Source: Actinomycetota bacterium
Lineage (GTDB): Bacteria > Actinomycetota > Acidimicrobiia > Acidimicrobiales > Iamiaceae
Length of the DNA: 33,660 nt
Assembly: GCA_963169755.1 (NCBI GenBank)
Contig: CAUJFC010000251.1
Span: 1-33,660 of the forward strand
Direction: 5' to 3'
The position numbers were made by a program, and so were the translations under genes. The notes beneath the pieces were generated by a model. That model ran no database searches and was not told the origin of the DNA. It saw nothing but the letters and a program-made list of their open reading frames with translations. Of the stretch, positions 4,028 to 14,763 are shown piece after piece. How positions within the stretch are numbered: position 1 is the stretch's first letter; every line of letters begins with the position of its first letter.

Positions 4028-4037
4028 CACTCTGGTG

Positions 4038-4982
4038 ATGCGAGTCGACGGTCCAGTCACTGTCATCGCCGGCGGTGTGGGTGCGGCCAGGATGCTGGCC
4101 GCACTGTTGGAGGTGATTCCACCGGAGCAGGTGACGGCGGTGGCCAACGTGGGCGACGACTTGGAACTCCACGGCCTGCACATAAGCCCCGACCTGGACA
4201 CCATCACCTACACGTTGGCCGGACAGATCAACCCTGAGACCGGTTGGGGCCTGGTCAACGAGAGCTGGCAGGCGATGGACACCCTGGGACGCTACGGCGG
4301 GGTGGACTGGTTCAACCTGGGCGACCGGGATCTGGGTACCCACCTGTACCGCACCCATCGGCTGGGGCAGGGAGCCACCCTGAGCCAGGTCACCGCCGAG
4401 ATCACCCGGGCCTGGAAACTCGGCATCAGCCTGCTGCCGGCCACAGACGACCGGCTGCGCACCATGGTCACTTTGGCCGAGGGCTCCGAAGCCGGTTGCG
4501 AGGTGACCTTTCAGGAGTACTTCGTGCAGCGCCGCCACTCGGTGGCGGTCAGTGGAGTGCGCTTCGATGGTGCCGATCGGGCCCGGCCGGGCCCCGGCGT
4601 TCTCGATGCGATCGGACAAGCCACCCGGGTGGTGATCGCCCCATCCAATCCGCTGGTCAGCATCGACCCTGTCCTGGCCGTGCCCGGCATTCGTGCCGCC
4701 CTCGAGGCGGTACGGTCCAACACGGTGGCGGTGTCGCCCATCGTGGCCGGAGCAGCGCTGAAGGGACCCGCTGACCGGCTGCTTCGTGAGCTGGGCCACG
4801 AGGCCACCGTGGTGGGTGTCGCCCGCCTGTATGCCCCACTGGCCGCCCGGCTGGTGATCGACGAGGCCGACGCCAACCTCGCCGACCAGGTGAACGCCGA
4901 GGGCATCACGGCGGTGGTGGCGCCAACCATCATGAAGCAGCCGGGGGTGGCGGCCGCCCTGGCTCGAGTGGTGCTGGAGTGA
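4038..4982 (+). CDS. cofD: 2-phospho-L-lactate/phosphoenolpyruvyl transferase CofD (FbiA)
   Basis: Transfers the phospholactyl or phosphoenolpyruvyl group from the guanylylated donor to the riboflavin-derived precursor Fo, giving (dehydro-)F420-0. The protein has 314 residues. Family motifs are AGGVGAARMLAAL at the N-terminus, ANVGDDLELHGLHISPDLDT, NLGDRDLGTHLYRT, PATDDRLRTMV, PSNPLVSIDPVL and SPIVAGAALKGPADRLL. A GTG one codon upstream (4035) is an equally possible start. It follows gmd by 10 nt and overlaps cofE by 4 nt (GTGA), so cofD and cofE are translationally coupled as in other actinobacterial F420 loci. Actinobacteria generally use the phosphoenolpyruvate donor; sequence alone does not decide. 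Confidence 0.95.
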   Translation: MRVDGPVTVIAGGVGAARMLAALLEVIPPEQVTAVANVGDDLELHGLHISPDLDTITYTLAGQINPETGWGLVNESWQAMDTLGRYGGVDWFNLGDRDLGTHLYRTHRLGQGATLSQVTAEITRAWKLGISLLPATDDRLRTMVTLAEGSEAGCEVTFQEYFVQRRHSVAVSGVRFDGADRARPGPGVLDAIGQATRVVIAPSNPLVSIDPVLAVPGIRAALEAVRSNTVAVSPIVAGAALKGPADRLLRELGHEATVVGVARLYAPLAARLVIDEADANLADQVNAEGITAVVAPTIMKQPGVAAALARVVLE

Positions 4983-5695
4983 ACACCCGCCTGTCGGTGT
5001 GGGCGGTCAGCGGCATCGGAGAGGTCCGTCCCGGCGACGACCTGGCCGGGATCATTGCGACCGCCGCTCTCGCTGAGCCCGAGTGCTTGGCCGACGGCGA
5101 CGTGGTGGTGGTGACCCAAAAGGTGGTCTCCAAGGCCGAGAACCGCCTGGTGGCCGTGGACCCCGACGACCCACGGGACCACAAACGCGTGGTCGAAGCC
5201 GAAACGGTACGGGCCCTGCGACGTCGAGGAGACCTGGTGATCTCTGAGACCAGGCACGGATTCATCTGCGCCAATGCCGGCGTCGACCTGTCCAACGTGG
5301 AACGCGGGTGGGCTGCGCTGTTGCCTGAGGACAGCGACCGTTCGGCCCGGCGAATTCGCGACGGCCTACGGGCCCGCGCCGGGGTCGAGGTAGCGGTGAT
5401 CGTGAGTGACACGTTCGGGCGGGTCTGGCGGCGAGGCCTGACCGACGTCGCCATCGGCAGCGCCGGAATCGGCCCCATCCTCGATCACCGGGGCACCCGG
5501 GACACTCAGGGTCGGGAGCTCCAAGTGACCGAGGTGGCGGTGGTCGACGAGTTGGCCGCCACCGCCGATCTGGTGCTGGGCAAAGCCACCGGGCTTCCGG
5601 TGGCAGTCATCCGGGGCATCGATCCGAGCTGGTTTCGCCCGGGTGAGGTGAGACGGGAGATCGTACGACCCGCCAGCGAAGACCTGTTCCGCTGA
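4979..5695 (+). CDS. cofE: Coenzyme F420:L-glutamate ligase CofE
   Basis: Adds gamma-linked glutamates to F420-0 in a GTP-dependent reaction. The 238 residues show VVVVTQKVVSKAENRLV, SETRHGFICANAGVDLSNV and VSDTFGRVWRRGLTDVAIGSAGI, the conserved blocks of the ligase fold. The GTG start overlaps the cofD stop. In mycobacteria this domain is fused to a C-terminal nitroreductase-like domain (FbiB) that reduces dehydro-F420-0. That domain is absent here, and the protein ends at normal CofE length. If the organism uses the phosphoenolpyruvate route, the reductase must be encoded elsewhere. The gene converges on the epimerase gene with a 10-nt gap, and both stop codons lie in one hairpin. Confidence 0.95.
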   Translation: MNTRLSVWAVSGIGEVRPGDDLAGIIATAALAEPECLADGDVVVVTQKVVSKAENRLVAVDPDDPRDHKRVVEAETVRALRRRGDLVISETRHGFICANAGVDLSNVERGWAALLPEDSDRSARRIRDGLRARAGVEVAVIVSDTFGRVWRRGLTDVAIGSAGIGPILDHRGTRDTQGRELQVTEVAVVDELAATADLVLGKATGLPVAVIRGIDPSWFRPGEVRREIVRPASEDLFR

Positions 5696-5712
5696 CCCGG
5701 ACTTCTCAGCGG
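5689..5712. terminator. Hairpin joining the convergent stops of cofE and the epimerase
   Basis: CCGCTGA (5689-5695) and TCAGCGG (5706-5712) form a perfect 7-bp stem around a 10-nt loop. Each arm contains the stop codon of one of the two convergent genes, so the structure could act on transcripts from both sides. No T-tract is present on either strand. Confidence 0.45.
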
Positions 5713-6650
5713 TTGGCGAAGTAGTCCAGCACCGCCGACGAGCCGGTGGCCAAGTCGGTCCAGGGCTTCCAACCGAGCTGCATCTCGGCCCGGCCAGCGT
5801 CGAGGGCCGAGCGGGGAACCTCACCGTCGCGCGCCGGTGCCAGCACTGCCGCCCGGTCGACGCCCGCCACCTTGGCCATGGTGGCGTACAGGTCGTTGAC
5901 CGAGGTCTCGACACCGGTCCCGATGTTGATCACCAGGCCACCACCTTTGTCCGCGGCCCGTACGAAGGCGTCGACCACGTCGTCCACATACACGTAGTCG
6001 CGGGTCTGGGCGCCGTCGCCGAAGATGGTGCACGGCTCGCCTGACAACAACCGACCGGCGAAGATGGCCACCACCCCGGCTTCACCGTGGGGGTCTTGGC
6101 GGGGCCCGTAAACGTTGGCCAACGCCAAGGCCGTGAACTCGAGATCGTGAAGGACCCGGTAGGCGGCGAGGTAGTCGCCCACCACTTTCTTTGCCACCCC
6201 GTAGGGCGAGATCGGAACCTGGGGGTGAGACTCACGCACCGGAAGATCGGCCCCGTCGGGAGCGCCGTAGATGGTTCCCCCACTGGAGGCGAACACCACC
6301 TTGCGGGTACCGGCCCGGCGCGCCCCCTCCAGCACATGGAGGCTGCCGATCACATTGATCATCGCATCCAGGACCGGATCGGCCACCGACACCCGAACGT
6401 CGATCTGGGCGGCAAGATGGAAGATGATCTCGGGCTGGCGACGCTCGATCAGCTCGGCCACCGCGCCATCGCGAATGTCGAGCCGGTGGAACTGGAACTG
6501 GTGATCGGGGTTGGAGCGCGCCTCGGCCAGGTTGGCCAGCGAGCCGCTGGACAGGTCATCGATGACGTCGACCGAGTGACCCTCGGCCAGTAGGCGGTCG
6601 ACAAGGGTCGATCCGATGAAGCCAGCGCCGCCGGTGACCAGGGTCTTCAC
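5706..6650 (-). CDS. NAD-dependent sugar epimerase/dehydratase (GalE-like)
   Basis: A nucleotide-sugar epimerase or dehydratase of the extended SDR family, 314 residues. The Rossmann motif GGAGFIG is at 7-13, followed by an acidic DDLSSGS loop typical of NAD-preferring UDP-glucose 4-epimerase relatives. The SSGGTIYG motif is near 122-129, the Y150-x3-K154 pair is in SPYGVAKK, and ALANVYGPRQDP and YVYVDDVVDAF follow. The closest described type is UDP-glucose 4-epimerase, but substrate cannot be assigned. It starts with GTG 1 nt after the stop of the guanylyltransferase gene, so the two are co-transcribed. It may supply a sugar to the three upstream glycosyltransferases or act on a GDP-sugar derived from mannose. 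Confidence 0.88.
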   Translation of the reverse strand: MKTLVTGGAGFIGSTLVDRLLAEGHSVDVIDDLSSGSLANLAEARSNPDHQFQFHRLDIRDGAVAELIERRQPEIIFHLAAQIDVRVSVADPVLDAMINVIGSLHVLEGARRAGTRKVVFASSGGTIYGAPDGADLPVRESHPQVPISPYGVAKKVVGDYLAAYRVLHDLEFTALALANVYGPRQDPHGEAGVVAIFAGRLLSGEPCTIFGDGAQTRDYVYVDDVVDAFVRAADKGGGLVINIGTGVETSVNDLYATMAKVAGVDRAAVLAPARDGEVPRSALDAGRAEMQLGWKPWTDLATGSSAVLDYFANR

Positions 6651-6651
6651 G

Positions 6652-7683
6652 TCAGTCTCCTCCCGTGCTCAGAGTCAGGTGTTCGTCCACCCCCACGGTG
6701 CCACCGGCCACCCGCAGGTCCGAGTCGATGATCGCCCGGTCACCGATGACCGCCAGATCGTCCACCCGGGTCCGCTCTCCCACCGTGGCTCCTGGCCCGA
6801 CGATGGAGCGTTCGACCACCGCACCCGACCGCACGGTCGAACCAGCCAGGAGGACCGAGCCGCGCACCTCGGCACCAGCCTCGATCGTGACCTCGGGGCC
6901 AACAACGGTGCGGGCCACCAAGGCGTCCTCGTGAACGTGGGCGTCGGGGTGGATGCCGGGCACCTTGTCTCCCCTGACGCCCCGCAACAGGTCCATCTGG
7001 GCCTGGAGGTACTTGGCCGGGGTCCCGGTGTCTATCCAGTAGGTCTGGCCGTCGAGCGCGAACAGGCAGGAGTCGGCCACCATGGCCGGGAACACCTCCC
7101 GTTCGATGGAGACCTTGCGGTCGCCGGCGATCCGATCCAGCACCGATGCCTCCAGCACGTAGGTACCGGCATTGATCAGGTCGGTCGGAGCCTCGTCGCG
7201 AGGCGGCTTCTCCACGAAGGCCTCCACTCGGCCATGTGAATCGGTGGGGACCACCCCGAATGCCGACGGGTCCTCGACACGGTGCAGAGCGATGGTTCCT
7301 TCGGCGCCGCTGGCCTCGTGGAAGTCGATCAGGGCATTGACGTCGAGGTCGGTGAGCACGTCGCCGTTGAGCACTACGAATCGCTCATTGATGCCGGCAT
7401 CAAGGGCCGCGAACCGGATGGCTCCTGCGGTGTCGAGCGGTTCGGGCTCCACCGCGTAATGAACCTTCACGCCCGCACACACCCCATCGGGGTAGGTGTC
7501 CGCGAAGGCGTCGGGCCGATACCCCATGGACAACACGGCGTCATCGATACCGTGCTGCGCCAGATGCTCGAGAACCCATTCGATCATGGGCTTGTTCACG
7601 ATGGGCAACATCTGCTTGGGCGTGCCGAAGGTGAGCGGTCGCAGCCGGGTGCCGAAACCACCGACCAGGACTACCGCCCTCAT
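6652..7683 (-). CDS. Mannose-1-phosphate guanylyltransferase (ManB/ManC type)
   Basis: A sugar-1-phosphate nucleotidyltransferase of 343 residues, most like the short actinobacterial enzymes that make GDP-mannose. The signature GGFGTRLRPLT is at 8-18, followed by GTPKQMLPIVNKPMIEWVLEHL, LNGDVLTD, FVEKPPRDEAPTDLINAGTYV and SIEREVFPAMVAD. The C-terminal third (about 250-335) has hexapeptide repeats of a left-handed beta helix. The INAG and SIEREVFPA blocks favour mannose-1-phosphate guanylyltransferase over glucose-1-phosphate thymidylyltransferase; this is from memory of the family. The ATG overlaps the upstream stop by 4 nt (ATGA). GDP-mannose made here would feed Gmd and possibly mannosyltransferases among the GT4 genes. 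Confidence 0.9.
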   Translation of the reverse strand: MRAVVLVGGFGTRLRPLTFGTPKQMLPIVNKPMIEWVLEHLAQHGIDDAVLSMGYRPDAFADTYPDGVCAGVKVHYAVEPEPLDTAGAIRFAALDAGINERFVVLNGDVLTDLDVNALIDFHEASGAEGTIALHRVEDPSAFGVVPTDSHGRVEAFVEKPPRDEAPTDLINAGTYVLEASVLDRIAGDRKVSIEREVFPAMVADSCLFALDGQTYWIDTGTPAKYLQAQMDLLRGVRGDKVPGIHPDAHVHEDALVARTVVGPEVTIEAGAEVRGSVLLAGSTVRSGAVVERSIVGPGATVGERTRVDDLAVIGDRAIIDSDLRVAGGTVGVDEHLTLSTGGD

Positions 7684-8534
7684 TCCCCGGACCCAGCGGT
7701 GGTTTCGGGGGCGACAGTGGTGTCGGGGGCGGCGGTGGTGTCCGTGGCCGCCGGGTCGGTGGAGCCATTGGGCTCGGTCGAATCGGTCACCACGGTGTCG
7801 GGGATGGAGATGTCGGTGCTGATATCGGGTACCGACATCTGCGAACCGTCCTGACCCACGTCGCTGGGGTTGGCGAGCTGAGAAACTCCGGCGGGCAGGG
7901 CTGGCACCTCACCCTTGGGTAGGAGCGCCAGCGAGAACGCCTGAAGGTCGGCCTTGAATCGAATGTTCGGGAAACCCGAACGGATGATCTGGTCGGGCTT
8001 GGGGTTGGCCGAGCCCATGGGGTCCTTCCAGTGGGCCATGGTCAGCTCGGTGGGCTTACCGGCACAGGTAGTCTCGCCGGCCTTGTAGACCTTGCCGTCG
8101 GGGGTCTTGAACCCGTCATCGGTGACCACCAGGCCAACCTGATCGAAGAACTTCCCCATGGTGGCGTTCTCGCCGGCAGCGGCCACCGAGAAGGGATGGA
8201 TGTGAATGAGGGACTCGCCGGCGTGCGCGTGGATGCCCAGCAGATCGGGGCCAATGTCGGTGAACGGACCGAGCTCCTTGCCGCACACGTTCACCGCGAA
8301 GGCCGCGTGCCAGTGGTCATAAGCCGACCCGTCTGCCAGCTGGGCCCGGGGCGGAGTGGTGTTGTCAGACGAGCCGATGTTCTCGGCTCGGGCGTAGGCC
8401 ACCACGCCTATACCGGCCGCGATCAACACCACGATCACCACCGGGAACAGCCAGTTGGCGCCCTTCTTGTTGGACTTTGCGCTGCTCTTGGACGCAACGC
8501 GGGCCACCTTTTTGGCCGAGGATGACGATGCCAT
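7680..8534 (-). CDS. Membrane-anchored protein with three HxH motifs, unknown function
   Basis: A 284-residue protein of no family I can name. A lysine/serine-rich cytoplasmic N-terminus (1-27) precedes one membrane helix (about 28-48). The rest should lie outside the membrane. The domain at about 65-230 has H74-W-H76, H102-A-H104 and H111-I-H113 plus H168, and two cysteines (C84, C157) that could form a disulfide. The clustered HxH pairs suggest a metal site; this is inference. From about 235 the tail is low-complexity Thr/Ser/Asp/Pro/Ala. The ATG has a TAGCGT 8 nt upstream. The stop overlaps the start of the guanylyltransferase gene, so it heads a three-gene operon of sugar-nucleotide enzymes. 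It may be a surface protein linked to glycan synthesis or merely co-expressed. Confidence 0.8.
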   Translation of the reverse strand: MASSSSAKKVARVASKSSAKSNKKGANWLFPVVIVVLIAAGIGVVAYARAENIGSSDNTTPPRAQLADGSAYDHWHAAFAVNVCGKELGPFTDIGPDLLGIHAHAGESLIHIHPFSVAAAGENATMGKFFDQVGLVVTDDGFKTPDGKVYKAGETTCAGKPTELTMAHWKDPMGSANPKPDQIIRSGFPNIRFKADLQAFSLALLPKGEVPALPAGVSQLANPSDVGQDGSQMSVPDISTDISIPDTVVTDSTEPNGSTDPAATDTTAAPDTTVAPETTAGSGE

Positions 8535-8595: not shown

Positions 8596-9837
8596 TCAGT
8601 GGCGAAGCTCGTCGAACAGCGATTCATAGGCCTCGGCAACTGCGGCGGGCGACGCCCACTGCTCGACGAATCGGCGGCCGCTCTCGCCCATGGCCCGGGC
8701 TCTGGCTGGATCCTGCACCAGGCTGAGGATGGCCTTGGTGAAAGCCTCGGGGTCGTCGGGGCCCACCGCCAGACCAGCACCGGCGTTGGTCACGGTGTTG
8801 GCCACCTCGGTCCCCGGGTCGACCGAGGCCACCACCGGCCGACCGGCCGCCAGGATGGTGTAGAGCTTGGAGGGCACGCTGGAGCGGGCCAGTCCGGCCT
8901 TGAGCGGAACCACGTGGATGTCGGCAGCAGCCGCCACCTCGGGCAGGCGGGCCTTGGGAGCCATGTCGACGAATCGCACATTCGACAGGCCAGCGGCGGC
9001 ACGCTCCAGGCCCGGTCGAGCCGATCCACCGCCATTGATCACGAACACCACATCGGGGTCGTCAGCCAGATGGGCGGCCGCGGCCAGCACCAGCTCCAAG
9101 GACTGCGAGAGTCCGACGTTCCCGGCGTACATCACGACGGTCTTTCCCTCGAGGCCGTGCTCGGTCCGGTAGGAGTTCTCCCGCTCGGTGGGACGGATCC
9201 AGTCAGTGTCGATGAAGTTCGGGATCACCCGAACCTTGGATGGATCGCCGGACCGGCCCCGCCTACCAGCGATCTTGGCGGCCACATTTTGCCGCAAGTC
9301 GTCGGACAGCACGGTCACGGCATCGGCTCGCAGGTAGGTCTCCCGCTCCAACCAGGACGCCACCGCTATGACCCTGGGATTGGTGATCGCCCCCAGTTCG
9401 ACCGCCACATCGGGAAACACGTCCTGGATGTTGAACACGAACGGCACCCGGTGGGCACGGGCCACCGTCCACCCGGCCGCCCCGAGGGTGAGGGGAGGCG
9501 ACATGGCCAGCACGGCGTCAGGCCGGCTGCGGGTGAGCAGGGCCGCCAGCCCGCTGAGCCCGGTGAACCCGGCGAATCCCAGGGCCCGGGCGGGGATGTT
9601 GCGCTTGTCGGTGGGAAACGGGTGCACCCGAGTGATCCGTCCCCAGTGGGTGTCCTCGTGGTGGACGACGGATCCCTTCCACTCGGGCTCGACCGCGTGG
9701 TGGACATACCAGGGCAACGAGGTGACCACGTGCAGACGGTGTCCCCGAGCGGCCAACTGCTCGGTGATCTGGGTCATCACCTCGCCGGTGGGCGCCAGAT
9801 CAGGCGCGAAGTGGGGACACAGTACGAGCAGGTTCAC
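8596..9837 (-). CDS. Glycosyltransferase family 4 (WbuB-like)
   Basis: A GT-B fold retaining glycosyltransferase of 413 residues, probably cytoplasmic or membrane-associated and building a surface glycan. The N-terminus LVLCPHFAPDLAPTG and the block FNIQDVFPDVAVELG resemble the WbuB-like GT4 subgroup. The nucleotide-sugar half has MYAGNVGLSQSLE, FVINGGGSARPGLE and VPSKLYTILAAGRPVVASV. The acceptor and donor are not identifiable. The GTG start overlaps the stop of the next upstream glycosyltransferase (GTGA). It is followed by a 61-nt gap with nothing recognisable beyond the promoter of the HxH gene. Confidence 0.9.
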   Translation of the reverse strand: MNLLVLCPHFAPDLAPTGEVMTQITEQLAARGHRLHVVTSLPWYVHHAVEPEWKGSVVHHEDTHWGRITRVHPFPTDKRNIPARALGFAGFTGLSGLAALLTRSRPDAVLAMSPPLTLGAAGWTVARAHRVPFVFNIQDVFPDVAVELGAITNPRVIAVASWLERETYLRADAVTVLSDDLRQNVAAKIAGRRGRSGDPSKVRVIPNFIDTDWIRPTERENSYRTEHGLEGKTVVMYAGNVGLSQSLELVLAAAAHLADDPDVVFVINGGGSARPGLERAAAGLSNVRFVDMAPKARLPEVAAAADIHVVPLKAGLARSSVPSKLYTILAAGRPVVASVDPGTEVANTVTNAGAGLAVGPDDPEAFTKAILSLVQDPARARAMGESGRRFVEQWASPAAVAEAYESLFDELRH

Positions 9838-10997
9838 TGTTGTTCATCCTCGCCCATGGAGAACGCTCGGCGGTATCCGGCCACCAGGGCCTGCGCCGTT
9901 CGTTCCCAGGTGAACGACGCTGCCCGGGTGCGCCCGGCGACCGCCATTCGTTCCTGCTCGGTGGGGTCGTCGATCACCGCGGCCAGAGCGTCAGCCCAGG
10001 CCGTGATGTCACCCGGAGACACCAGACGACCACCGTCACCCACCACCCAGGGCAGGGCGGTCGTATCGGAGGCCACCAGTGGCCGCCCGACAGCCATGGC
10101 CTCGAGGGCGGGAGCCCCGAAGCCTTCGAACCGACTCGGGACCGCCACTACGGTGGCCATCGCGTACAACGCGCTGAGGTCAGGCCACGGTACCCGCCCG
10201 GTCCGCCGGACCTGTGCTCCCACTCCCGAGGCGCGGATGGTCGCCGCCAACTCGGCTTCCAGCGGACCCGGGCCGCCGGCCAGAACCAGGGTCACGTCAG
10301 GCCGAGACGGGGCCAACTGAGCGAAGGCCGCCACCAAAGTGGCATGGTCCTTGTGGCGGTAGGGAATGGCCGGATAGAGGATCGTCCGCTCACCGAGCCG
10401 GTACCGGGCCCGTACCTCGTCGAGCTGTGACGGCTCCGGCAACGGGGAAGGCTCCACCCCGTGGGGCACGGTCATCACCTGGCTAGCGGGGACTCCCAGC
10501 AGATCCACCACCGAGGCCGAGGCGGGCTCACTGGGGGTGAACACCAGACGAGCTCGTCGAGCTGAGCGCGGCAGCATGGTCCCAAGCCAGTGACGCTTGA
10601 CCGGCGAGAAGTTCTCAGGCATCACCAACGGTTGGAGGTCGTGGATGGTCAGCACGGCCGGCGTTCGGGCCACCAACGGACCGGGAGGCACCACTCCCCC
10701 GGCGTGATGCACCAGGTCGATCCCGTAATGGGCCAGCGCCCGTGGCAGCCAGGTGGACTCACGCGCCACCCGTTCGGCCTTGCGGTGACCGTCGGTGTCG
10801 GCGGCCACCACCGGGAACCGCTCAGCCACCTCGGGATGAGCATCGGCGAACTGTCCCAGAGCGAAGATGGTCACCCGCAGGTCGGGGTCGCCGCTTTCAG
10901 CCAGAGCCAGCAGGGCCCGGGTGGTGTACTCCTCGCTACCGCCCACCACGCCCGGCACCAACCACAACAGGTTCACCCCCACATGAAAAGTGCTCAC
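9834..10997 (-). CDS. Glycosyltransferase family 4 (MtfB-like)
   Basis: A GT-B fold glycosyltransferase of 387 residues. The N-terminal acceptor half starts with GVNLLWLVPGVVGGSEEYTTRAL and contains LTIHDLQPLVMPENF, FTPSEPASASVVDLLGV and VPHGVEPSP. The donor half has VPSRFEGFGAPALEAMAVG with the E-x7-E spacing typical of retaining GT4 enzymes, then RPLVASDTTALPWVVGDGG. This subgroup includes mannosyl- and rhamnosyltransferases, which would fit a locus making GDP-mannose and GDP-deoxymannose, but donor specificity is inference. GTGA overlaps couple it to both neighbours. Confidence 0.92.
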   Translation of the reverse strand: MSTFHVGVNLLWLVPGVVGGSEEYTTRALLALAESGDPDLRVTIFALGQFADAHPEVAERFPVVAADTDGHRKAERVARESTWLPRALAHYGIDLVHHAGGVVPPGPLVARTPAVLTIHDLQPLVMPENFSPVKRHWLGTMLPRSARRARLVFTPSEPASASVVDLLGVPASQVMTVPHGVEPSPLPEPSQLDEVRARYRLGERTILYPAIPYRHKDHATLVAAFAQLAPSRPDVTLVLAGGPGPLEAELAATIRASGVGAQVRRTGRVPWPDLSALYAMATVVAVPSRFEGFGAPALEAMAVGRPLVASDTTALPWVVGDGGRLVSPGDITAWADALAAVIDDPTEQERMAVAGRTRAASFTWERTAQALVAGYRRAFSMGEDEQQ

Positions 10998-12106
10998 GGG
11001 ATCACCTCGGCGTAGGCGGCGGCGGTGAGTCGGGCGGTGTGGTCCCAGGTGAACCGGGCGGCACGCTCGCGCCCCGCGACCCGCATCTGGTCGGCACGAG
11101 TCGGATCGTCGAGCACTGAGGCCAGCGCCGAGGTGATGGCCTCAGTGTCGAGTGGGTCCACCAACAGGCCAGCGTCACCGGCCACTTCAGCGGTGGCAGT
11201 TCCGGCCGAGGTGACCACTGGGGCTCCGTGGGCCATGGCGTCCAGAACCGGCATACCGAAACCCTCGCGCAGGCTCGGGAAGCAGAAGACACCGGCCCCG
11301 GCGTAGAGCGGCAACAGGTCCCTGGGGGGCAGAAAGCCCAGCCGATGTACTCCGACTCCGGATCCGTCCAGCACACCTAAACGTTGGTCGAGGTCCTCGT
11401 TCCAGCCGTCGGGTCCCACGATCACCAGGTCGAGCTCGCGGTCGGCCAGGCCTGCCACCGCGTCGATGACCCCACCCAGGTTCTTACGGGGTTCAACGGT
11501 GCCCACGAACAGTACGTAGGGGCGCGTCAGACCGAACCGATCCCGAACCGTCTCAACCTCACTGGACGACACCGGTCGAGGGTCAACTCCCCACGGCACG
11601 ATCCGCAAACGTTCGGGGTCGAACCCTGCGGCCCGGCATTCAGCCGCGGTGGCCTCCGATGGCACCAGCACCAACCGGGCGTGGCGCCGAGCCAGTTCGG
11701 TGCCCCGCCGGAAGAACCGGTTGCCGTGGCGGGTCACCAGCGAGGGGTCAGCCAGGAAGGCGAGGTCGTGGATGGTCATGACCAGCGGAGCTCGGGTGGG
11801 CGGTACCGCAACCGCGGTGGCGTGGACCACGTCCACCGGCCCGGTCGCCCGCTCGATCGCTGGCCACCGAAGACCGTGCCACGCCTCGTACAGCGCCAGC
11901 CGGGGCAGTGGGAGTTGTACGACATCGACCGGCGGGTTGAACGGCTCCGCTGGCTGGGCACCGTGGCGGGCTGCCACGCCGATCACCTCGACATCGGTTC
12001 TTCGGGCCAGAGCGGCGACCGTTCCCAGGATCGACGTGGCCGTCCCTCCGGGGACCCGGTGCCAACATTGCTCGAGGGTGACAGCCACCCGACGCCGATG
12101 TTCCAC
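10994..12106 (-). CDS. Glycosyltransferase family 4
   Basis: The first gene of the three-gene glycosyltransferase run. The donor half has FVGTVEPRKNLGGVIDAV, CFPSLREGFGMPVLDAMAHG and SAGTATAEVAGDAGLLVDPLD. The second acidic residue of the usual E-x7-E pair is Asp here. The acceptor half has MTIHDLAFLADP and PSEATAAECRAAGF. The frame is open to 12169, but I chose the GTG at 12106 (start VEHRRRVAVTLEQC, 370 residues). It leaves a normal N-terminal Rossmann strand and has a CAGAAT 6 nt upstream. A GTG at 12127 remains possible. The second and third GT4 genes are similar in layout to this one and may be old duplicates. Confidence 0.88.
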   Translation of the reverse strand: MEHRRRVAVTLEQCWHRVPGGTATSILGTVAALARRTDVEVIGVAARHGAQPAEPFNPPVDVVQLPLPRLALYEAWHGLRWPAIERATGPVDVVHATAVAVPPTRAPLVMTIHDLAFLADPSLVTRHGNRFFRRGTELARRHARLVLVPSEATAAECRAAGFDPERLRIVPWGVDPRPVSSSEVETVRDRFGLTRPYVLFVGTVEPRKNLGGVIDAVAGLADRELDLVIVGPDGWNEDLDQRLGVLDGSGVGVHRLGFLPPRDLLPLYAGAGVFCFPSLREGFGMPVLDAMAHGAPVVTSAGTATAEVAGDAGLLVDPLDTEAITSALASVLDDPTRADQMRVAGRERAARFTWDHTARLTAAAYAEVIP

Positions 12107-12112
12107 CTCGTG

Positions 12113-12118
12113 ATTCTG
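12113..12118 (-). promoter_or_regulatory. Weak -10-like element for the glycosyltransferase operon
   Basis: On the minus strand CAGAAT is followed by 6 nt and the GTG at 12106. It deviates from TANNNT at the first base. It lies in the 68-nt gap shared with the divergent GGDEF-EAL gene, for which I could not find an equivalent element. Confidence 0.28.
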
Positions 12119-12174
12119 CCCCCACACTCCCGTCAAGTCCTCAACACCGTCTCGGGGCTGCCGACCCAAGAGTG

Positions 12175-14763
12175 ATGGCGAAGTCGTCGCCGCTGGGAGA
12201 GCTTCGCCGGCAGGTTCGTAGCGTGGGTTGGTCGCCCTATGACGGGCCGAACCCTCGCGCTCTGGAACGTCTCTTCATCCAGAGATACGTGGTGGTGGTG
12301 GCCCTGGCCGTGGCTGCCGTGATCATTCCCGATGTTCCGGTAGCCACCGCCGTAGCGGCGGCCGCTGTTGGCACGTTGCTCAACGTCAGCGCCCACGTCG
12401 TGACCCGCCGACGGGGTCGGATCCCGGTATGGATGTACGCCGCCGACCTGACAGCCTGTCTGGGCTTCCCGTTGGCATTCCCGGTGACCTTCGTCCCGTC
12501 GGCCTTCATGGCCCTGGTGGGGATCGGAATGGCCGCCACTCTCAACGGCATCGCCCTGGCCGCCACGTTGGGCATCGCCGCCACCGTGGGGCTGGGTGCG
12601 GTCCAACTGGTGATCAACGTTGACGGAGGTGAAGTCACTGTCATCGGACTCGGCGCCACCGCTTTCGTGATCACCGAGGCCATCGGGCGCCTGGGAGCCG
12701 ACCAGCTGGTACTGCGCCAGCACCTGAACGAAGTCATCGACGGACTCGATGCCGCCCTGTGGGTGCGATCGATGCCCGAAGGGACGATCACGTTCGTCAA
12801 CCAGCGGGCGGTCACCATGCTCGGGTGGAGCGAAGAGCAGTGGTTGGAGCCCGGTTTCTGGGCCAGCCGAGTTCACCCCGACGATCTGGAGATGGCTGAA
12901 GGCATTCTCGACCGTGCCGCGGGGCTGGGGATCGACGTCGACCTCACCTATCGGTTCCGCAATGCCGCCGGCCACTGGGTCCACCTGCACGACCGGGTTA
13001 CCGCCGACCTCGACGACCGGGGGCAGACCGTCGCGCTGCGAGGCCTGAGCCTGGATGTGTCCGAGCGATTCCGAATCGAGCAGCGAGTCAACCAGTACGC
13101 CGACATCGTCGACCGAATCGACCTGGCCCTGCTGGTACTCAGGCTCGAGGAGGGCCCCGACGGAGTACTGATCATGGACGGCGCCAACGCTGCCGCCAGC
13201 CGACTGGTGCACCGCGACCTGCACCCGCTCATCGGTGGAACCATCGAAGACGCCTTCCCCGCTCTGGCCGGGTCACGCCTGCGAAACCGACTGGCCCTGG
13301 TGATCGAGCGGGGTGTTCCCCTACGGGTCGACGATCTGCTGGTCCGCCCCACCCGCGGCGCCCCCCGGGTGGTGACCCTGCGGGCGTTCCCGCTCACGGG
13401 CAGGGCAGTGGGGGTCTCGCTCCAGGACGTGACCGAAGCAGTGGAGGCGTCCGAAGCATTGCGCCGCCAGGCCCTCTACGACAGCCTCACCGGCCTGCCC
13501 AACCGTCGCCTGCTCGACGAAGAGCTCCACCGTCGAATCGGACAGGGTTCCCTGCCCGGCGAGAACGTCGCCCTGTTGGTGATGGACCTGGACCAGTTCA
13601 AAGAGGTCAACGATGCTCTGGGCCATCACGTGGGTGATCAGCTCCTTCGCAGCATCGGAGACCGACTGACCGCCGAACTGAGTGACTCCCTGGTGGCCCG
13701 GCTGGGCGGCGACGAGTTCGCCGTGGTCCTCGCCGGGCTTGTCAACGAGGTCGATGCCCGTCGCGTGGCCGACCGCATCAGAGAGACCCTGTCCGAACCG
13801 TTCATCCTCGACGACGTGCGGCTCCAGTCCAACGCCAGCATCGGGATCGCCCTGTACCCCGAGCAGGCCCGCGACGTGGCCACGCTCATCCAGCGGGCCG
13901 ATGTGGCGATGTACATGGCCAAGCGGGCCGGAGCCGGCGTGGCGGTCTACGCCGCCGAGCACGACCGATCCAGCGTCGAGCGGCTGACCCTGATCGGTGA
14001 TCTCCCCGGTGCCGCCGAGAGCGGACAGTTCGTGCTCCACTACCAGCCGTGCGTGGCCCTGCGTACCGGCCGACCGGTTCGGGTCGAGGCGCTGATCCGC
14101 TGGCAGCACCCTCGCCTCGGACTGCTCGGTCCCGACCAGTTCGTCGAGTTGGCCGAACTCTCCGGCGCCATTCAACCCATGACCCGATGGGTTGTGGGCG
14201 AAGGGTTGGCCGCCCTGCGCCACTGGCGCAACCACGGCTATGAGATCGGCCTGGCGGTGAACCTGTCGGTGCGCAACCTCTATGACCCCGACCTGGTCAG
14301 CTACCTCGAGACCGCCCTGGAGACCCACGACATCCCGCCGGGCGATCTGGTGCTGGAGCTCACCGAGACCGAACTCATGGATGATCCATCCCTGGCTCAG
14401 GAGGTCTTCGCCGCCCTCGGTGCTCTGGGGGTCAACACCTCGATCGACGATTTCGGAACCGGCTACTCGTCGCTCACCTACCTACGAGACCTGCCCCTCC
14501 AGGAGATCAAGATCGACAAGTCGTTCGTGGCCGAGATGCATCGCCGCAGCGACGAGTTCACCATCGTGCGCTCGATGATCGACCTGGGTCACAACCTGGG
14601 CCTGGAGGTGGTGGCCGAGGGGGTGGAACACGCCGACGACCTGCAACTCCTGCGCCGTCTCGGCTGTGACCTGGGTCAGGGCTACCACTTCAGTCGGCCG
14701 TTGCCCTCCGATGAGTTGCTGGCCTGGCTGGAACACCATCACAGCCAGGCCGCGGTGGACTGA
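12175..14763 (+). CDS. Membrane PAS-GGDEF-EAL cyclic-di-GMP signalling protein
   Basis: An 862-residue protein that may make and/or break c-di-GMP. The N-terminus (about 35-180) has several hydrophobic segments forming a membrane sensor of no named type. A PAS/PAC domain (about 180-300) contains VHPDDLEMAEGILDRA and LSLDVSERFRIEQ. A second PAS-like segment runs to about 425. The GGDEF domain has YDSLTGLPNRRLLDEEL and an intact GGDEF at 511-515. The RxxD inhibitory site is missing; the four residues are LSDS. The EAL domain keeps EAL at 638-640, DDFGTGYSSL, EIKIDKSFV and AEGVE, so its catalytic residues look complete. GTG at 12172 is an alternative start. Net activity cannot be predicted. It is divergent from the glycosyltransferase operon, so a link to exopolysaccharide output is plausible. 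Confidence 0.93.
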   Translation: MAKSSPLGELRRQVRSVGWSPYDGPNPRALERLFIQRYVVVVALAVAAVIIPDVPVATAVAAAAVGTLLNVSAHVVTRRRGRIPVWMYAADLTACLGFPLAFPVTFVPSAFMALVGIGMAATLNGIALAATLGIAATVGLGAVQLVINVDGGEVTVIGLGATAFVITEAIGRLGADQLVLRQHLNEVIDGLDAALWVRSMPEGTITFVNQRAVTMLGWSEEQWLEPGFWASRVHPDDLEMAEGILDRAAGLGIDVDLTYRFRNAAGHWVHLHDRVTADLDDRGQTVALRGLSLDVSERFRIEQRVNQYADIVDRIDLALLVLRLEEGPDGVLIMDGANAAASRLVHRDLHPLIGGTIEDAFPALAGSRLRNRLALVIERGVPLRVDDLLVRPTRGAPRVVTLRAFPLTGRAVGVSLQDVTEAVEASEALRRQALYDSLTGLPNRRLLDEELHRRIGQGSLPGENVALLVMDLDQFKEVNDALGHHVGDQLLRSIGDRLTAELSDSLVARLGGDEFAVVLAGLVNEVDARRVADRIRETLSEPFILDDVRLQSNASIGIALYPEQARDVATLIQRADVAMYMAKRAGAGVAVYAAEHDRSSVERLTLIGDLPGAAESGQFVLHYQPCVALRTGRPVRVEALIRWQHPRLGLLGPDQFVELAELSGAIQPMTRWVVGEGLAALRHWRNHGYEIGLAVNLSVRNLYDPDLVSYLETALETHDIPPGDLVLELTETELMDDPSLAQEVFAALGALGVNTSIDDFGTGYSSLTYLRDLPLQEIKIDKSFVAEMHRRSDEFTIVRSMIDLGHNLGLEVVAEGVEHADDLQLLRRLGCDLGQGYHFSRPLPSDELLAWLEHHHSQAAVD

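Follow-up and report, generated by a model that had tools for sequence, protein, structure and literature searches.

A membrane-tethered protein with three HxH pairs in an envelope-glycan locus of Acidimicrobiales: a candidate surface metal binder from a wider unannotated family

Copper proteins of the CopC and PCuAC types work outside the cytoplasm, where they are expected to handle metal through histidines. Other structures of interest here are those of the transcobalamin beta domain and DUF4430 (PF14478; 3u7z, 5no0), among which 3u7z has been linked to the beta-grasp entry 2m19 through profile comparison (PMC13385337). Here, we analyze a 33,660-nucleotide stretch of DNA ("the window") from an actinobacterium of the family Iamiaceae, order Acidimicrobiales (contig CAUJFC010000251.1 of assembly GCA_963169755.1), and in it a minus-strand gene for a 284-residue protein with three His-x-His pairs, called the HxH protein below. 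We think it probable that this membrane-tethered protein of a conserved envelope-glycan locus carries, outside the membrane, a domain in which the three pairs make up one transition-metal site and that it binds or buffers metal at the cell surface. Judged from sequence comparison, it is most likely the branch that a wider, unannotated family of extracytoplasmic proteins (pattern HxH...HxH...Hx[H/E]) has in the Acidimicrobiia.

A preceding sequence-only reading of the window had described one membrane helix, the pairs H74/H76, H102/H104, and H111/H113, two cysteines, and a Thr/Ser/Asp-rich tail, and all of these are present exactly as claimed: a basic segment leads into a long helix (residues 29–56), a compact domain, and a Thr/Ser/Asp/Pro-rich tail (Table 1). 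The description "surface-anchored" holds as far as the single N-terminal membrane helix is concerned, while no sorting motif was seen by eye and no dedicated test for one was made. An anchor common to other proteins of the same genome was considered and rejected, as residues 1–60 had no other match there below E 0.1. The statement that no family could be recognized also stands: the window protein matched nothing in Pfam at E ≤ 1 or in NCBIfam at E ≤ 10, sequence searches of the PDB with the single protein or a profile gave nothing convincing, and no Pfam family was common to two or more of 26 relatives.

In an alignment of 26 rows (A1), all six histidines, C84, and C157 are invariant, although this is a selected set because its rows were chosen by a histidine-containing motif and His-poor loci were left out. 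Typing of 245 of 246 loci (a redundant set; L185 was the one locus not typeable) gave 178 with all six histidines and 7, one of them a repeat, with glutamate at the sixth position (Glu takes the place of H113 in L091, L134, L168, L172, L219, and L225). Reduced to unique gene pairs (139, of which four were dropped for gapped sites), the data held 104 orthologues with all three pairs intact, counting either His or Glu at the sixth position, 26 without any complete pair, and intermediates with pair 3 alone (4) or pair 1 alone (1). The resulting 104:31 split of intact and degenerate sites is not a frequency, owing to biased locus finding: the loci of alignments A3 and A5 came from a scan with histidine-containing patterns, and L058–L137 (80 kept of 187) are biased to intact sites. 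A less biased sample of 53 related genomes contained 46 intact sites (3 with Glu), 6 degenerate ones, and 1 incomplete one, and a set of 20 genomes taken one per family (f106, f108–f110, f112–f127; 10 further genomes picked partly for low scores are excluded) had intact sites in 11 (Glu in 2 of them) and degenerate sites in 8, with 1 unclear (L234). Across the 135 unique orthologues, C84 is identical in all and H74, H76, H104, H111, and H113 in 79–82%, and W75, G121, and A124 are conserved around the six ligand positions.

On a quick tree of the neighboring guanylyltransferase, in which 59 of 132 inner branches are open, it takes 11 changes to account for which sites are intact and which degenerate, and starred branches force at least 6 of these. 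In independent tree comparisons, pairs 1 and 2 shift in the same direction in a mean of 5.7 of 6 and never oppositely (median p 0.031), and the median p is 0.0625 for pairs 2 and 3 as well as for pairs 1 and 3. Retention and loss thus tend to affect the six positions jointly. The sequence-only reading had named histidines not conserved in orthologues as an outcome that would speak against a metal site; the outcome is mixed, as most of the orthologues inspected retain them and 31 of the 135 unique ones have a degenerate site.

The same six positions recur in a wider group of proteins, designated HxE after the glutamate at the sixth position. Relatives of this type are found in other classes and also in two genomes with a His-less operon copy (L297 in G055 and L299 in G297). 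One locus from a genome of family f28 (L183, the same as L291) combines a window-type anchor with an HxH...HxH...HxE domain and has neighbors without glycan genes. Among seven HxE rows (L291 and L296–L301; alignment A6), the six equivalent positions are invariant (7/7), the sixth being Glu. All three pairs are also present in 14 of the 16 plasmid proteins with annotation, the open reading frames (ORFs) of the other two being cut short. In single comparisons with hhalign, the window family matched the HxE family at 93.1% (E 3.2e-7) with the domain only and at 96.1% (E 2.8e-9) with the anchor included, and in the aligned columns it shows the pattern HxH, HxH, Hx[HE] in the same order. The tested members of the wider family are, like the window protein, without database matches: no Pfam family scored above cut-off for L183, L296, L297, L299, L300, or nine plasmid members, no NCBIfam family above cut-off for L296, L299, or L300, and no PDB sequence match was found for L300. 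Neither family is described in the titles and abstract openings found by literature searches.

On a plasmid of Anoxybacillus amylolyticus, an SkfF-annotated protein of a sporulation-killing-factor operon carries an intact HxH/HTH/HxE domain at its C terminus (L325:5396-7432), and on a plasmid of Caballeronia zhejiangensis, two tandem wider-family domains, the first degenerate and the second intact, are followed by two glycosyltransferase genes (L332:6188-7432).

The plasmid members allow a look at gene neighborhoods. Wider-family members were found in 24 plasmid records, and 18 of these were examined (11 actinobacterial, 6 annotated non-actinobacterial, and 1 unannotated), with an incomplete gene table and the annotators' gene names. 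In 10 of the 11 actinobacterial regions, which are not all independent as the two mer regions are alike and the mycobacterial ones may be, metal-resistance genes lie within 6–7 kb of the member; the exception is pACHL01. The member comes directly after merA-merB on two Pseudarthrobacter plasmids and directly after a P-type ATPase on the Streptomyces F2 and Mycobacteroides abscessus plasmids, and the remaining positive regions have P-type ATPases, CDF, CopC, CopY, ArsR/SmtB, or multicopper oxidase nearby. As a control, four stretches of 49 kb (196 kb in total) from four of the same plasmids contained a single ArsR/SmtB regulator and none of these kinds of resistance gene. For the seven chromosomal HxE-type loci, one to five neighboring ORFs each were put to Pfam: the genes after L291 encode a CsoR-type metal-sensitive repressor (PF02583, E 2.1e-29) and an ArsP permease, and L301 has two cation-efflux genes and an ArsR-type regulator as neighbors.

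Of the readings considered, the binding of metal outside the membrane has the best support, which comes from the joint conservation and loss of the six positions, the homology to the wider family, and the metal contexts of its members on actinobacterial plasmids; binding itself, the kind of metal, and the role in the cell are our inference. The metal-binding role at the cell surface suggested by the sequence-only reading is thereby supported in part, on evidence that it did not have, and stands as a prediction. The protein would be single-pass, with a conserved basic cytoplasmic segment, one helix, and a beta-grasp-like domain outside. The side chains of the three pairs would meet in one site for a transition metal, such as copper, zinc, or a similar ion, and C84 would probably be disulfide-bonded to C157. 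At the cell surface, the outside domain would then most likely bind or buffer metal ions, and the cytoplasmic anchor probably has a separate role tied to the envelope-glycan locus.

Several observations weigh against this reading. The metal contexts are those of the wider family, the neighbors of the HxH gene in the window being glycosyltransferases, a guanylyltransferase, an epimerase, and F420 genes. In the wider family, no plain metal-resistance gene is present in the six annotated non-actinobacterial plasmid regions (an ArsR/SmtB regulator occurs in one and a bacterioferritin in another), nor did the Pfam-scanned neighboring ORFs of L296–L300 hold a metal gene. Among the 135 unique orthologues, 31 have a degenerate site and still adjoin the guanylyltransferase gene, and the outside domain is absent altogether in L184 and L246, so the locus can do without the site. 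Replacement of a lost site by a separate HxE-type protein, as seen in G055 and G297, is not general: in most of the searched His-less genomes no such protein was seen, with G054, G267, and G286 giving N-terminal matches only. The "putative metal binding" label of 3u7z lends the histidine site no support, because it concerns calcium, whose binding is discussed in PMC3975891 as partly nonspecific.

The degenerate sites also bear on a different role of the histidines. In the outside domain, the fraction of Asp and Glu (D+E) has a median of 0.050 for degenerate versus 0.156 for intact sites (p 1.8e-10, Mann–Whitney U test), whereas the neighboring cytoplasmic enzyme differs little (0.123 versus 0.133, p 0.0046); both p values are overstated as the rows are related. 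Such acid-poor domains could be expected if the histidines were a proton (pH) sensor, or a structural cluster, and reported outside acidity to the glycan machinery, and genome G054 is His-less; histidines in either role would be put out of action by acid surroundings. On independent tree comparisons, however, D+E and a degenerate site go the same way in 1.8 of 6, oppositely in 0, and show no difference in 4.2, which is not significant. If rows below 0.09 are called acid-poor, the term fails to fit 8 of the 31 degenerate rows and does fit 9 of the 104 intact ones. Together with the plasmid members that have the same pattern near metal-resistance genes, this makes a sensor of protons or a structural cluster quite unlikely in our judgment. 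An acid habitat as the cause of histidine loss, suggestive in the raw counts and not significant on the tree, was not retained.

In genus g49, the loss goes further. Two genomes (G160 and G593) retain only the N-terminal segment, the helix, and the tail beside the guanylyltransferase, with no trace of the domain in the stretches examined, while in a third genome of the genus (G675, L200) the protein is complete and its site intact. These stubs and the His-less orthologues imply that the site, and even the whole domain, can be lost while the anchor stays. We raise, as a tentative and rather doubtful idea, a transmembrane coupler. Its outside metal site, in common with a large unrecognized family of surface metal-binding domains that serve in mercury and copper resistance regions, would report or buffer metals, and its conserved cytoplasmic anchor would act on the machinery for envelope glycans. 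The site would have been eliminated in some lineages, perhaps acid-living, and in others the domain would have gone and the anchor remained. If this were true, the site-less and domain-less lineages would be natural mutants of every step. In one of the reduced loci (L293), a 405-residue open frame lies between the reduced gene and the glycosyltransferase.

That the frame of the window is a real gene is borne out by its distribution. With the window protein as the query, matches were found in 53 of 61 related genomes and in 30 of 396 sampled across the phylum. A profile including the His-less forms matched 282 of 297 genomes of the order (244 of 255 among the good ones); 8 of the 282, found in family f28 and in genus g49, were weak (E above 1e-17), and the weak matches inspected (G050, G160, and G593) covered the N terminus only. 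Across the phylum, the profile matched 37 of 392 genomes, consisting of 30 of the order, 1 from another order of the class (G076), 3 from another class (f50), and 3 weak matches, and seven other genomes of the same class but another order gave no match. The 80 kept named loci are titled mostly as metagenome-assembled genomes (MAGs) of Acidimicrobiia, Acidimicrobiales, or Actinomycetota; L083, L106, and L113 are titled Acidobacteria or Euryarchaeota yet carry an Acidimicrobiales-type gene and are possibly mislabeled MAGs. None of the 22 pattern matches in viral contigs was confirmed, no phage relatives were found with an HxE-type query, and no plasmid relatives of the window type with the L039 query. 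Second copies of the window-type domain take secreted or membrane forms and include two fusions to peptidyl-prolyl isomerases: one copy is joined to an FKBP isomerase (L162:2315-3358; PF00254, E 3.2e-10) and one with a partly degenerate site to a cyclophilin (L273:2974-4284; PF00160, E 3.2e-25).

The stop codon of the HxH gene overlaps the ATG of the guanylyltransferase-like gene by 4 nt (ATGA, 7680-7683), confirming the overlap that had been noted with a GDP-mannose synthase gene; the name guanylyltransferase is a reading of the Pfam NTP_transferase match and of the best NCBIfam match, which is below its cut-off. On the same strand, the epimerase gene comes next, and on the 5′ side three glycosyltransferase genes with mutual 4-nt overlaps precede the HxH gene, separated from it by a 61-nt gap. 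The placement of the HxH gene at the head of the operon was therefore wrong and is rejected. As for the proposed tie between its expression and sugar-nucleotide supply, the overlap is confirmed and the neighborhood widely kept, but the overlap was the sole basis for the claim and one lineage lacks the guanylyltransferase.

The synteny of orthologues, suggested as a check by the sequence-only reading, shows that the slot is kept: among the 80 named loci, 59 have the guanylyltransferase gene as the next gene downstream and 49 a glycosyltransferase gene as the next one upstream (tblastn and profile; some loci end early and two have almost no downstream flank), and His-less orthologues occupy the same slot between the two. 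Such constancy would also be expected if the outside domain handled glycan or polymer, for instance as a chaperone or acceptor-binding domain, with metal being only structural. We consider this unlikely, given that a lineage represented by L070 and its relatives, mostly marine-looking MAGs by title, keeps the gene in its slot beside CofE, CofD, and GDP-mannose dehydratase with no guanylyltransferase or epimerase match in the slot (L070, L071, L073, L074, L077, L078, L081, L082, L088, L094, L097, L112, and L113), that the members in another class (L152–L154) have the gene elsewhere, and that the second copies are secreted or membrane forms, including the two isomerase fusions. In related genomes, the glycan locus often neighbors, on the opposite strand, the F420 genes CofD and CofE, which in the window lie at 4035-5695 (+). 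The region is flanked by genes for an FtsH-family protease (70-2349, +) and a PAS-GGDEF-EAL signaling protein (12172-14763, +).

AlphaFold2 with an alignment of 57 sequences, including that of the window, modeled the full protein with a pLDDT of 81.6 and the domain alone with a pLDDT of 97.0 and a pTM of 0.91. Foldseek found no match at E ≤ 0.001 in the PDB or a viral library. In a second fold comparison, rows 1–13 for both models were 3u7z, transcobalamins, and haptocorrin, with Z scores of 5.5–6.5 (full protein) and 5.7–6.8 (domain) before a drop to 3.7 and 3.4, and 2m19 was row 15 for the full protein. With these models, the transcobalamin-beta/DUF4430 folds thus stand out modestly among solved structures (rmsd 2.9–4.6 over 87–95 aligned residues), although at a Z below 8 the likeness may be one of shared arrangement only. 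A sequence link to DUF4430 was rejected: PF14478 had no match among 26 members at E ≤ 10 and none in the genome of the window, and among the relatives it matched in G006 and G007 only, on other contigs than the HxH gene. The CopC, PCuAC, and cupin folds were not in the fold-comparison lists, which excludes nothing. The six conserved ligand positions together with W75, G121, and A124 might suggest a surface metalloenzyme with a His-coordinated active site. No solved enzyme fold stands out, an absence that again excludes nothing, and the repeated loss of ligands with the fold retained is unlike an essential enzyme; an enzymatic role seems to us improbable.

Table 1. Features of the HxH gene and protein, its neighbors, and the reduced genes of related genomes
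Feature	Position	Strand	Basis and remarks
Gene for the 284-residue membrane-tethered HxH protein	7680..8534	minus	ATG start; ORF and translation
Basic cytoplasmic N-terminal segment, residues 1–28, KxSSxKKVARxA type motif	8451..8534	minus	Alignments, conservation
Membrane helix, residues 29–56	8367..8450	minus	AlphaFold helix; membrane location predicted from hydrophobic sequence
Extracytoplasmic domain, residues 62–224, beta-grasp-like	7863..8351	minus	Model (pLDDT 97.0, pTM 0.91); fold comparisons
His pair 1, H74-W-H76	8307..8315	minus	Translation, alignment, site typing
His pair 2, H102-A-H104	8223..8231	minus	Translation, alignment, site typing
His pair 3, H111-I-H113; sixth position Glu in some relatives	8196..8204	minus	Translation, alignment, site typing
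C84, identical in 135/135 unique orthologues	8283..8285	minus	Conservation
C157, possible disulfide partner of C84	8064..8066	minus	Alignments, which shift at the C157 column
Thr/Ser/Asp/Pro-rich tail, residues 225–284	7683..7862	minus	Sequence, AlphaFold (low model confidence)
Mannose-1-phosphate guanylyltransferase-like gene (ManC label)	6652..7683	minus	Pfam NTP_transferase; NCBIfam NF052502 best, below cut-off; synteny
NAD-dependent epimerase/dehydratase, GalE-like	5706..6650	minus	Pfam; NCBIfam below cut-off
Glycosyltransferase GT6, WcaI-like	8596..9837	minus	Pfam; NCBIfam below cut-off
Glycosyltransferase GTb	9834..10997	minus	Pfam, NCBIfam searches
Glycosyltransferase GTa	10994..12169	minus	Pfam, NCBIfam searches
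Reduced genes without the outside domain (same genes as L184, L246)	L292:5674-6000, L293:5986-6291		Beside the guanylyltransferase gene

A gene present in 282 of 297 searched genomes of a large bacterial order had been without a family name. Through its link to a wider family that recurs on actinobacterial plasmids close to genes for mercury and copper resistance, that wider family now has a testable function and a defined set of ligands. Nature has removed the site repeatedly from a protein and a slot that are otherwise kept, which provides ready controls for the roles of the site and the anchor.

Among known systems, the transcobalamin beta domain and DUF4430 offer the closest solved fold arrangement to the HxH domain, with Z scores of 5.5–6.8 that stay below 8 and no sequence match. 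The copper proteins of the CopC and PCuAC types share with it the location outside the membrane and the His-based metal handling expected of them, but the HxH protein has no Pfam match to those families. The HxE family comes nearer in sequence, having the same six positions in order, an LGxFF-type motif after pair 3, and an N-terminal membrane or lipoprotein-like anchor. It differs in its sixth ligand, which is Glu rather than His, in an extra and mostly conserved His after pair 1, and in its setting: on actinobacterial plasmids, the HxE family lies near metal genes, whereas the window family lies near glycan genes.

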